DNA of 64,000 bases, from contig NZ_HG005165.1 of assembly GCF_000455245.1 (NCBI RefSeq), forward strand, positions 404,620 to 468,619, given 5' to 3'. Below are positions 41,359 through 43,994 of this stretch, one piece after another. The stretch comes from Nesterenkonia massiliensis. Lineage in GTDB: Bacteria > Actinomycetota > Actinomycetes > Actinomycetales > Micrococcaceae. The notes under the pieces were generated by a model that made no database searches, was not told the DNA's origin, and worked only from the letters and a program-made list of their open reading frames with translations. The position numbers and the translations under genes are program-made. Every line of letters starts with the position of its first letter. Within the stretch, counting starts at the first letter, position 1.

Positions 41359-42015
41359 GTGCGCAAACTCTTCCAGGAGGATCTCCATAAGCTCGGAGAC
41401 CAACTGACCGATATCTCCGTGCTTGTCTCCGAGGCAATGGAGAAAGCCTACCGGGCCTACGAGACTGCTGATGTGCAGCTGGCCGAGGAAGTCATCGCTG
41501 CTGACACCCGGATCGACACGCTGCAGAACGACCTCGATGAGAAAGCCATCGAACTGCTGGCACTCCAGGGTCCGGTAGCTGGAGACCTGCGCCTGATCGT
41601 TGGTGCGCTCCGGATGTCCGCCTCGCTGGAGCGCATGGGAGATCTGGCCCGACACATCGCTCAGCTGGTGCGGCTGCGCTATCCGGATCCGGTTGCTCCT
41701 CAGCAGCTGGTGGATGTGTACCGGCAGATGGCCGAGAAGGACATCCAGATCGCTAAGAAGCTGGTGGAGCTGCTGGTCACCCGCCAGGTAGACCTGGTGG
41801 CTGAAATCGCTGCGCTGAATGAGCAGATCAACGAGCTGCACGCCGGAATCTTCACCGCTATCGCGGCTGATAACTGGGACGCTTCGCCCTCGGCCACCGT
41901 GGACTCGGCCCTGACCAGCCGGTACTTCGAGCGCTTCGGCGACCACGGTGTCTCGGTGGCGAAGAAGGTGCTCTACCTGGTCACAGGCCAGTGGGAAGCT
42001 GAGCCCACCGCCTGA
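41359..42015 (+). CDS. phoU: Phosphate signalling protein PhoU
   Basis: A 218-residue all-helical protein with two PhoU repeats: the metal-binding-type helices around DVQLAEEVIAADTRIDTLQN and again RYFERFGDHGVSVAKKV. It links the Pst phosphate transporter to the sensor kinase and dampens SenX3-RegX3 signalling. GTG 41359 has AAAGGAA about 11 bases upstream. It is divergent from senX3 and its transcript ends at the large palindrome at 42054-42110. Confidence 0.93.
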   Translation: MRKLFQEDLHKLGDQLTDISVLVSEAMEKAYRAYETADVQLAEEVIAADTRIDTLQNDLDEKAIELLALQGPVAGDLRLIVGALRMSASLERMGDLARHIAQLVRLRYPDPVAPQQLVDVYRQMAEKDIQIAKKLVELLVTRQVDLVAEIAALNEQINELHAGIFTAIAADNWDASPSATVDSALTSRYFERFGDHGVSVAKKVLYLVTGQWEAEPTA

Positions 42016-42053: not shown

Positions 42054-42110
42054 GTAAAGAAACTGCCGGAACTCCCTGCCAATCAGGGTCAGTTCCGGCA
42101 GTTTCTTTAC
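42054..42110. terminator. Large palindrome A after phoU (bidirectional terminator-like)
   Basis: Perfect 20-bp arms at 42054-42073 and 42091-42110 (each containing CTGCCGGAACT or its complement), with an inner CCCTG/CAGGG stem around CCAAT. Both strands end the stem in TTTCTTTAC. It lies 39 bases after phoU, and the stop codon of the convergent nuclease-like gene (42107-42109) is inside its right arm. A close copy is at 43151-43217. Confidence 0.9.
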
Positions 42111-43090
42111 GTAAGTTCCGGCCCATTGCCCAGCAGCACCCTCAGCCGCCTCAGCATCGAAGAGAAGTTCTCCGCCAGATCCACGCGATTGACTTGAATG
42201 ACCGTCCATCCTGCGTGAGCGAACTCTGCGTTGCGACGCTGGTCTCGGGCCTGCTGTTCGGCGCTGAAATGATGTTCCCCTTCGTATTGCAGAACAATCC
42301 GCCGATCTCGGTAGCCGGCGTCGCCCTCAGCCGAATAGGGGTCCTGCGGGTCGCGCTTGATCTGCAGCTCAGGCTCCGGCAGCCCGGCCCGGCCAATCCC
42401 AAGACGCATAGCCGTCTCCGGCGGCGAGTCCGCGCCGACTCGGACCAGCTCGACGGCTTCCCGCGCCCGAATGATGCCATGCCGTCCCTTGCCCAGCTTC
42501 ACGGCCTCATTCAGATCGGCGATGCTGCACCAAGGGTGGCTGCGCCCTTCCAGACGGGGACGCGGGAGACGCACCAGTTGATCCCCAAAGCTGATCAGCT
42601 CATCGCGTGTCAGGTACCGAGCCAACTCAACGAACAGTTCAGCGGGTTCAGTCACGGGCACACCTTGAATCCATCGCCTGCGCACCGGTGCCGCAGCCAC
42701 CCTGTGGATGACCACTAACGGATCGACGTCGGACTGATGAGTTCTCCCTTGAGCTGTCAGAGTCACCCGAGAATCCTGCTCCCATCGCGCAGGAAGGCGG
42801 AGTCGGTAGAGCTTGGCGGCGCTGAGATGACTCACCCGCACTGCCGCCGACCTGCGACACAGCGCCGCCAGCAGCGCAGCATGCTCCGCCGGCTCCGGAG
42901 AAGAGGTCTGCGACGGCGCCCCTGATACGGCCACTTGATCGGCCAGCGGAAGATGCCGATAGGTGCCTCTGCCAAGCCGCTCAATATCGCGGGCGCCCAG
43001 GCGCCGGTCCCGAATCCCGAGAGCGAACGCCTCGGCTCGCGTGAAGACGCGGCCGATCAGCTGGCTCGGCAGAGGCGTTGGCGGTCGCAT
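42107..43090 (-). CDS. DUF559/PD-(D/E)XK nuclease-like protein flanked by twin palindromes
   Basis: A 327-residue protein. The N-terminal half resembles AbiEi-type antitoxin/winged-helix domains (FTRAEAFALGIRDRRLGARD, LGRGTYRHLP, VSHLSAAKLYRLRLP). The C-terminal 100 residues have the DUF559 Vsr-like core: a GYRDRRIVLQYEGEHHF strand with acidic and His residues, then RDQRRNAEFAHAGWTVIQV. This combination is frequent in actinobacteria; function (defence, mobile cargo or housekeeping) is not established. ATG 43090 is chosen; the frame upstream reads through palindrome B. It has no cognate toxin next to it and splits phoU from gpm. Confidence 0.72.
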   Translation of the reverse strand: MRPPTPLPSQLIGRVFTRAEAFALGIRDRRLGARDIERLGRGTYRHLPLADQVAVSGAPSQTSSPEPAEHAALLAALCRRSAAVRVSHLSAAKLYRLRLPARWEQDSRVTLTAQGRTHQSDVDPLVVIHRVAAAPVRRRWIQGVPVTEPAELFVELARYLTRDELISFGDQLVRLPRPRLEGRSHPWCSIADLNEAVKLGKGRHGIIRAREAVELVRVGADSPPETAMRLGIGRAGLPEPELQIKRDPQDPYSAEGDAGYRDRRIVLQYEGEHHFSAEQQARDQRRNAEFAHAGWTVIQVNRVDLAENFSSMLRRLRVLLGNGPELT

Positions 43091-43150
43091 AGTGCCAGCC
43101 TGGCCCAAACCCGGCAGCGGCGGGACGCCCGTCGTCGAGCTGTGGAAAAG

Positions 43151-43217
43151 AAAACGTAAAGAAACTGCCGGAACTCCCTGCAAATCAGCAGGAGTTCCGG
43201 CAGTTTCTTTACGTTTT
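43151..43217. terminator. Large palindrome B after gpm, near copy of palindrome A
   Basis: Perfect 27-bp arms at 43151-43177 and 43191-43217 with the 13-base loop CTGCAAATCAGCA. The inner 57 bases differ from palindrome A at only a handful of positions, mainly in the loop. It lies 31 bases after the gpm stop (minus strand) and 61 bases upstream of the nuclease-like gene's start, and ends in TTTCTTTAC/GTTTT on both strands. Confidence 0.92.
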
Positions 43218-43247: not shown

Positions 43248-43994
43248 CTACTTCTTCCCCTGGTTGGCCACAGCCTCAATGGCGGCCTTGGCTGCCTCGG
43301 GGTCCAGGTAGGTTCCGCCGGGGGTCACCGGCTTGAAGTTCTCATCCAGCTTGTAATGCAGCGGGATACCGGTGGGGATGTTCAGCCCCGCGATGTCTTC
43401 ATCGCTGATGCCGTCCAGGTGCTTGACCAGTGCGCGCAACGAGTTGCCGTGAGCAGCCAGCAGCACAGTCTTCCCGGACTTCAGATCGTCCTGCACCTCA
43501 GTCTCGAAATAGGGCACAAAACGGTCGACGACGTCCTTGAGGCACTCGGTCTGAGGGGCGGCATCGCCAAGATCCGCATAGCGGGGATCGCCAACCTGGG
43601 AGTACTCGTCGTCGGCGTCGATGGCCGGCGGCGGAGTGTCGTAGGAGCGCCGCCAGGTCATGAACTGCTCATCACCGTAGGTCTCCCGGATCTGGGTCTT
43701 GTCTTTGCCCTGCAGAGCACCATAGTGGCGCTCGTTCAGGCGCCAGTCGCGCTTCACCGGGATCCACAGTCGGCCAGCAGTCTCCAGAGCCAGGTGTGCG
43801 GTGGTAATGGCTCGCTGCAGCAGGGAGGTGTGGACCACATCGGGGAGCAGATCATGCTCGGCCAGCAGCTCGCCGCCGCGGGCAGCTTCTGCACGCCCCT
43901 GCTCGGTCAGCTGGACGTCCACCCAGCCGGTGAAGAGGTTCTTCTGGTTCCAGTCGCTCTGTCCATGGCGGAGCAGAATCAGGTCGTATGCCAT
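43248..43994 (-). CDS. gpmA: 2,3-bisphosphoglycerate-dependent phosphoglycerate mutase
   Basis: A 248-residue glycolytic mutase. The phospho-His motif is [12 protein letters not shown], the second His is in [14 protein letters not shown], and [13 protein letters not shown] and [10 protein letters not shown] complete the active site. It interconverts 3- and 2-phosphoglycerate. In actinobacteria this gene often sits beside phoU/senX3-regX3; here the nuclease cassette intervenes. Its transcript is bounded by palindrome B. Confidence 0.95.

Follow-up and report, generated by a model that had tools for sequence, protein, structure and literature searches.

Organization of the locus

The window analyzed here, a 64,000-nucleotide stretch of the genome of Nesterenkonia massiliensis (this genome is called G000 below), carries a gene for a nuclease-like protein that is placed between two large palindromes and, further outward, between phoU and gpm. 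The features of the locus are as follows:

41359..42015, plus strand: phoU, left neighbor (PF01895 match)
42054..42110, no strand: palindrome A, on the 3' side of the nuclease-like gene, with 20-bp perfect arms and a 17-nt center
42107..43090, minus strand: AbiEi-like/DUF559-like two-domain gene, 327 aa, intact, between palindromes A and B
43151..43217, no strand: palindrome B, on the 5' side of the nuclease-like gene, with 27-bp perfect arms and a 13-nt center
43248..43994, minus strand: gpm (phosphoglycerate mutase type), right neighbor (PF00300 match)

A preliminary description, made from the window alone, had noted two near-identical perfect palindromes around exactly one gene that separates phoU from gpm, and all of this was borne out: A and B share 90% identity across 62 bp, the nuclease-like gene is the sole gene flanked by the two, and both neighbors match their Pfam profiles. 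The start codon is the ATG at 43090, corresponding to the first residue of the aligned homologues, with palindrome B 60 bp upstream of it, and the stop codon (42107-42109) falls within the outer edge of palindrome A. As plus-strand RNA, A and B are predicted to fold at -43.6 kcal/mol (z -11.8) and -51.6 kcal/mol (z -13.2), respectively, and none of 200 shuffled sequences folded as well as either. The sequence of the outer arms is T-rich in both directions. Neither palindrome was called by a terminator consensus scan, which has a loop limit of 8 and could miss both, and a search against known RNA families produced a single weak hit, to a microRNA (29.6 bits, with the cut-off at 98). DNA uptake sequences were also considered and rejected, because the core 11-mer (with at most one mismatch) occurs too few times, 61 times on one strand and 69 on the other against 48 and 33 for the reversed control. 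In a collection of named genomes, close homologues of the window protein were found in N. salmonea and N. cremea.

An AbiEi-like domain joined to a nuclease-like domain

The label DUF559 that had been given to the protein fits the family but is weak for the window protein alone; namely, the Pfam profile (PF04480) scores the window protein at 15.8 bits (E 0.013), below the cut-off of 20.6, and matches 31 of 41 homologues at E<=0.01. The AbiEi-like N-terminus was confirmed by a PADLOC match of the window protein (E 3.6e-5) and by one AbiEi model that matches 35 of the 41 homologues at E<=0.01. At the same threshold, the only profiles matching these homologues were DUF559, MTES_1575, AbiEi_4, AbiEi_1, and DUF2726, and no profile of an HUH tyrosine (Y1) transposase was matched by any of them. 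Five residues (E225, D257, Y269, G271, and H274) are invariant in all 41 homologues; position 270 is either Glu (21) or Asp (20), and position 268 is Gln in 36, Glu in 4, and Lys in one. Judged by sequence, the conserved residues are those that a catalytically active Vsr/DUF559-type PD-(D/E)XK nuclease should have, and the AbiEi-like N-terminus is probably DNA-binding. The predicted structure is too weak for use (pLDDT 43.8), with a C-terminal secondary structure compatible with the PD-(D/E)XK fold, and a search of solved structures with the window protein gave a best E of 0.46.

Of 197 genomes sampled across the class Actinomycetes, 132 contain members of this family. Among phage and plasmid records, matches were found in 1 of 50,697 and 6 of 72,556, respectively, all below 60% identity, and a pattern scan of viral contigs, sensitive to close relatives alone, gave no match. 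Cargo of phages or plasmids was rejected on the grounds that such relatives are too few and all below 60% identity. The earlier suggestion of a defense or homing cargo likewise gained no support, given that no AbiEii toxin gene adjoins the nuclease-like gene (its neighbors being phoU and gpm), that phage and plasmid relatives are few, and that copies of the palindromes also occur outside the cassette, as described below.

Matched repeats on both flanks of most homologues

The 250 bp upstream of each gene were compared with the 250 bp downstream, and a local score of 36 was used as the threshold. In the genus, 70 of the 92 places listed were sampled, and 45 of the 69 with a usable stop reached the score. 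Class-wide, 24 of 30 loci among the matches listed did so (23 of 29 after removal of a duplicate of a genus gene), as did 14 of 19 in a further 20 chosen class-wide, from which one was dropped for a short flank. Matching repeats thus lie on both flanks of 82 of the 117 homologues from Nesterenkonia and other Actinomycetes, and a detectable pair is absent in 35; the 117 loci are partly non-independent (e.g., L228 and L231 encode 99% identical proteins), and L052 (contig end), L352 (short flank), and L256 (the same gene as L217) are left out of the counts. When both windows were slid by 500-900 bp, 4 of 596 comparisons matched, and no matched flanks were found around phoU (0/28), gpm (0/28), or the other genes of the window (0/57), 0/113 in total. 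Pairing the flanks of different genes gave 1.7-3.9% matches, with orthologues and same-genome relatives included.

The repeats are close to the gene: the 5' repeat is separated from the start by a median of 82 bp, and the 3' repeat from the stop by a median of 4 bp. The median match length is 75 bp. The relative orientation of the two copies is variable (42 direct and 40 inverted). A clear hairpin was recognized in 114 of 166 flank segments (83 loci, L352 included); some pairs match without a good hairpin (e.g., L226 and L234), and many palindromes of the family have no T tract. In the 114 hairpin centers, AAATC occurs in 15 against 2.0 expected and CCGAA in 23 against 5.1 expected, orthologues being included in both counts. 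An AATC/CGAAATC-type motif in the centers of otherwise unrelated palindromes may be a common recognition mark.

At the level of the phylum, the Pfam DUF559 profile matched 59 of 149 genomes, and 30 loci among the matches listed were compared; this comparison used a longer 5' region and is more permissive, so that its scores are not comparable with those of the 250-bp test. The score was reached by 9 of 19 loci with frames of at least 254 aa (L370, L371, L381-L384, L386, L388, and L389) and by 2 of 9 with frames below 200 aa (L369 with a short palindrome and L378 with low complexity), neither of these two being a convincing pair; L379 and L392 have short flanks, and L389 repeats L277. Pairing thus seems tied to the longer kind of DUF559 gene in this small and permissive comparison, which sorted the genes by frame length. 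The palindrome on both sides of the short DUF559 gene L369 (G356:C1:2293730) resembles parS, the site of ParB. Among the named plasmid records, matched flanks were found in five of six: two in Arthrobacter sp. StoSoilB13, one in Arthrobacter sp. ERGS1:01, and two in Tsukamurella tyrosinosolvens, while the Nonomuraea record scored below the threshold. As a separate observation, the homologue on the ERGS1:01 plasmid (L394) again lies among phosphate genes (a DUF47 family protein, a phosphate transporter, and pstB).

The phoU-gpm interval in Nesterenkonia

The nuclease, phoU, and gpm served as queries against 30 genomes of the genus. In 28 of them phoU and gpm share one contig, and in 27 of these 28 (the exception being G002) they are within about 3.1 kb, in agreement with the earlier remark that the two genes are often close to each other. 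The nuclease gene adjoins phoU or gpm in nine genomes (G000, G003, G005, G006, G007, G011, G017, G025, and G027), and in G025 the match contains an internal stop and meets the end of a contig. The phoU-side position common to these nine looks old. A matched pair was found at the phoU locus in seven of the eight species with both flanks testable, G011 being the exception, and the pair in G006 was the weakest (score 39). In this G006 locus (L203; G006:C33:82071-83088), phoU and the nuclease gene are separated by an extra gene that looks by eye like an aldo/keto reductase. The palindrome at the phoU locus often differs between species and yet agrees within each species: it is GTAAAGAAACTGCCGG in G000, GCGTCTCAGAACTGC in G017, and GTCTCGGGATGTGGG in G007, and the palindromes of G003 and G027 are similar to the G000 and G007 types, respectively.

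An empty site with a single palindrome, proposed earlier as a sign of insertion, does exist: G014 has no gene between phoU and gpm and one palindrome with 28-bp arms. In a tree of phoU and gpm (28 of 29 genomes, with G015 dropped), however, G014 is placed inside a clade whose other five members carry the gene (support 0.90 for the clade and 0.50 for the exact place). Given that G014 is nested among gene-bearing species, loss of the gene leaving one palindrome is a simpler reading of this site than a state before insertion. In G020 and G016, which are gene-less and within or near the gene-bearing clade, no such palindrome was found in the phoU-gpm interval, and the same interval of gene-less G001, G021, and G029 has large hairpins of unrelated sequence.

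Specificity of the palindrome to its gene

Among 33 genus genes selected because their pairs are strong, the two repeats of a gene have a mean similarity of 0.56, a value that is high in part by this choice, while repeats that belong to different DUF559 genes of the same genome have a similarity of 0.13 (25 pairs), which equals the background of unrelated genes. Similarity of at least 0.4 between the palindromes of different genes was reached only above 60% protein identity, in 2 of 7 pairs at 60-80% and in 3 of 3 above 80%. The overall rank correlation between palindrome and protein similarity is weak (0.11, a value reached in 31 of 1000 permutations), which would fit palindromes that quickly diverge beyond recognition. 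DUF559 homologues elsewhere, whose flanks the preliminary description had proposed to check for the same repeats, are often flanked by matched palindromes, but by palindromes specific to each gene and not by the same repeat.

Dispersed copies of the palindromes

A covariance model (R1) was built from nine copies of the palindrome, and copies were counted by place, since each palindrome matches both strands. In the nine copies, 92.4% of the cells are paired, with some changes on both sides, against 31-49% with a slid partner; the consensus structure was derived from the same nine sequences, and this control hence leans in its favor. With R1, at least 13 places were found in G000, namely A, B, and at least 11 others, and at least 12 extra copies were found in G003. 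Even G014, despite the loss of the phoU-linked gene, keeps at least five palindromes. Among the candidates scored, R1 matches at least 12 of the 30 genus genomes and only the flanking pair in G017; among 150 candidates scored per genome, no match was found in 18 of the 30. One G000 copy (L046; G000:C2:26364) runs into an N stretch of the assembly. Further copies in the genome, for which a search had been proposed, do exist, but the extra copies in G000 are at gene ends and none is beside the genome's other DUF559 genes, a distribution that taken alone would speak for ordinary terminators and against a cassette. The gene context was examined with a crude gene caller for 39 dispersed copies (11 of 11 in G000, 10 of 12 in G003, 4 of 4 in G014, and 14 of 14 in G011): 15 lie between convergent genes, 18 between tandem genes, one between divergent genes, and five inside a called ORF, as raw counts with no null.

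Other types of palindrome are also dispersed. The type shared by G011 and G005 has 14 dispersed copies in G011 and 6 in G005, with no copies in G029 and G013, and all six G005 sites match G011 sites, pointing to slow turnover. At a site found only in G011 (position 283128), the aligned G005 site is without the palindrome, and a separate hairpin beside it is present in both genomes; the alignment of this one filled and empty pair is affected by intergenic drift, which hides any short target-site duplication. At a second site (150715), G005 retains just part of one arm amid other sequence. Of the G007 type, G007 itself has about seven additional copies that are full or nearly so, G027 has three full and two partial copies, and G017 has four full and one partial; none was found in G014, G003, or G000. 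As the phoU-linked gene of G017 bears another type, its G007-type copies are perhaps an orphan repeat population. The palindrome type of a second G000 gene has one extra copy.

Outside Nesterenkonia, in family f23, counts of the pattern GTTGATCWTGGAG per strand are 4-148 across ten genomes assigned to genus g46 and 0-1 in two from g71, while its reversed control is 0 in all twelve; these counts pool two types, ATGG and TTGG. Both types border homologues in G142: TTGG-type arms flank the one at C133 on both sides, and the one at C82 adjoins a full ATGG palindrome, with one exact arm on its opposite flank. Eleven distinct full f23 palindromes at the listed loci comprise five in tandem, three in convergent, and one in divergent contexts, one in a called ORF, and one left unresolved.

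Discussion

The proteins described here belong to a widespread actinobacterial family, most genes of which make up a unit together with a palindromic repeat of their own. We consider it fairly probable (roughly 0.6) that the AbiEi/DUF559 proteins are the cognate partners of these palindromic repeats, in a layout resembling that of REPtrons but with an unrelated enzyme of the PD-(D/E)XK type. Matched flanks, their gene specificity, the dispersal of several types, their presence and absence among species, and residues of the catalytic type are all directly observed, and beyond these we infer a role of the enzyme in moving or maintaining the palindromes. In such a unit, one palindrome is placed about 60-115 bp before the start codon and a second at or just past the stop codon, with further single copies often scattered at gene ends. 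The AbiEi-like domain and the nuclease would jointly recognize the cognate palindrome, which could be extruded as a cruciform or form a hairpin in single-stranded DNA at replication, and the protein might then cut or nick the extruded palindrome. Repair or replication would in turn copy the short palindrome to new sites and/or keep the palindrome family alike, and the gene between the two copies would be losable, with one palindrome remaining.

An alternative, which we regard as unlikely, is a mobile cassette, in which the palindrome-nuclease-palindrome unit inserts as a whole, recombination between the two palindromes later deletes the gene, and solo palindromes are scars like solo LTRs and not elements that move separately. 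The unit is indeed compact, as the medians of 82 and 4 bp indicate, and in G014 a lone palindrome stands at the place that the complete unit occupies in its closest relatives. The palindromes, however, are far more numerous than the genes: G173 has up to 148 arm copies per strand against 6 gene matches and G000 has at least 11 extra copies against 4; furthermore, the phoU-side place common to nine genomes looks old, and no target duplications were found in the one filled and empty pair, where drift would hide short ones. What stands of the cassette idea in the preliminary description is therefore a changed form: matched palindromes do recur around homologues, but they are specific to each gene, and the single palindrome of G014 is most simply read as a loss. 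Recombination between members of a palindrome family, also raised there, may explain such losses but not the matched pairs around this gene family in particular.

The palindromes might instead be ordinary bidirectional terminators that end transcription of the neighbors, insulate a harmful gene from read-through, and are alike through gene conversion between nearby copies, with the nuclease uninvolved; we consider this rather improbable. Copies at gene ends, often between convergent genes, are what terminators would give, as are the T-rich outer arms of the G000 palindrome in both directions, its very stable fold, and the unrelated large hairpins in the same interval of G001, G021, and G029, which are without the gene. 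Many palindromes of the family, on the other hand, have no T tract, A and B were not called by the consensus scan (albeit one whose loop limit could miss them), and the separate hairpin beside the inserted palindrome is also present in the relative without the palindrome. Other genes do not have matched flanks (0/113 genes and 4/596 shifted windows), and terminators alone are thus rejected as a full account.

An operator or addiction role, in which the AbiEi-like domain binds the palindrome for self-regulation and the dispersed copies titrate the protein and act as an antidote or as marks of 'self' against the nuclease, similar to a toxin-antitoxin or restriction system made of one gene, is very improbable: AbiEi antitoxins bind to inverted repeats within the promoter of their own gene, and the AbiEi-like N-terminus and a palindrome 60 bp upstream of the start codon would suit such a role, but it leaves unexplained the second copy at the stop codon and its match to the first in 82 of 117 loci, no AbiEii gene is next door, and G014 keeps at least five palindromes without the phoU-linked gene.

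The reading as a nuclease with its own palindromes can be compared with several known systems. Two papers on RAYT/REP elements (PMC3733652, PMC3116915) describe a gene flanked by palindromic repeats, genes that are repeat-specific where one genome carries multiple kinds of repeat, a dispersal of the repeats chiefly to intervals between tandem or converging genes, and a gene that is sometimes deleted. Like RAYT/REP/REPIN systems (REPtrons; TIRtrons), the nuclease gene lies between private palindromes with more copies at gene ends, and the flanking palindromes are also dispersed in the genome for several types here. Unlike RAYTs, the enzyme is a Vsr/DUF559-type nuclease and not an HUH tyrosine transposase, and unlike REPs, the palindromes are long (median match 75 bp), single, and found here in Actinomycetota. 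By its layout alone, the system could be counted among the REPtrons, but its enzyme is unrelated to RAYTs. CGTC-tagged REPs, for which a dedicated transposase is reported to be apparently absent (PMC3733652), are similar to the nuclease-linked palindromes in being palindromic, intergenic, and dispersed. Caulobacter has both CGTC-type REPs and a DUF559 match.

In its C-terminal domain and conserved residues, the protein is like the PD-(D/E)XK nucleases of Vsr/DUF559/MTES_1575, from which it differs by the extra AbiEi-like domain. In the most pertinent paper found, a DUF559 protein of Caulobacter, VsrA, is reported to drive a DNA damage response in methylase-less cells (PMC12907096). With AbiE (type IV) toxin-antitoxin systems, the protein shares the resemblance of its N-terminus to AbiEi, but a nuclease-like domain is fused instead and the AbiEii toxin is absent next door. 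A homing endonuclease gene interrupts its own target, and the empty site is the allele that is cleaved; compared with such a cassette, the palindromes here are intact on both sides of the gene, and the single-palindrome site of G014 is read as a loss. Insertion sequences of the IS200/IS605 type and MITEs have a compact gene, hairpin-forming ends, and short non-autonomous copies elsewhere; the present unit is alike in its compact gene, hairpin-forming ends, and short copies elsewhere, whereas its enzyme is unrelated to that of IS200/IS605 and both of its ends are whole palindromes in either relative orientation. We know of no function for proteins of this kind. A search restricted to open-access full text gave no paper that links DUF559 to palindromes, and the novelty of this link is thus uncertain.

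In a broader sense, two-domain AbiEi-DUF559 nucleases may constitute a phylum-wide, non-HUH class that mobilizes repeats, in which each nuclease would be specific to its own palindromes and would both spread and preserve them, in convergence with RAYT/REPIN; we see the chances of this wider proposal as evenly balanced. The gene-specific palindromes on both sides of the gene point to its likely substrate, which makes the function directly testable. If the proposal is true, an unrelated class of enzyme would join the gene-linked palindrome families that are best known from RAYT/REP, and a source would be given for dispersed actinobacterial palindromes that could otherwise be mistaken for terminators. 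The class would then explain a large share of the palindromic repeats in some actinobacterial genomes and, beyond actinobacteria, perhaps also the CGTC-type REPs without a known enzyme.
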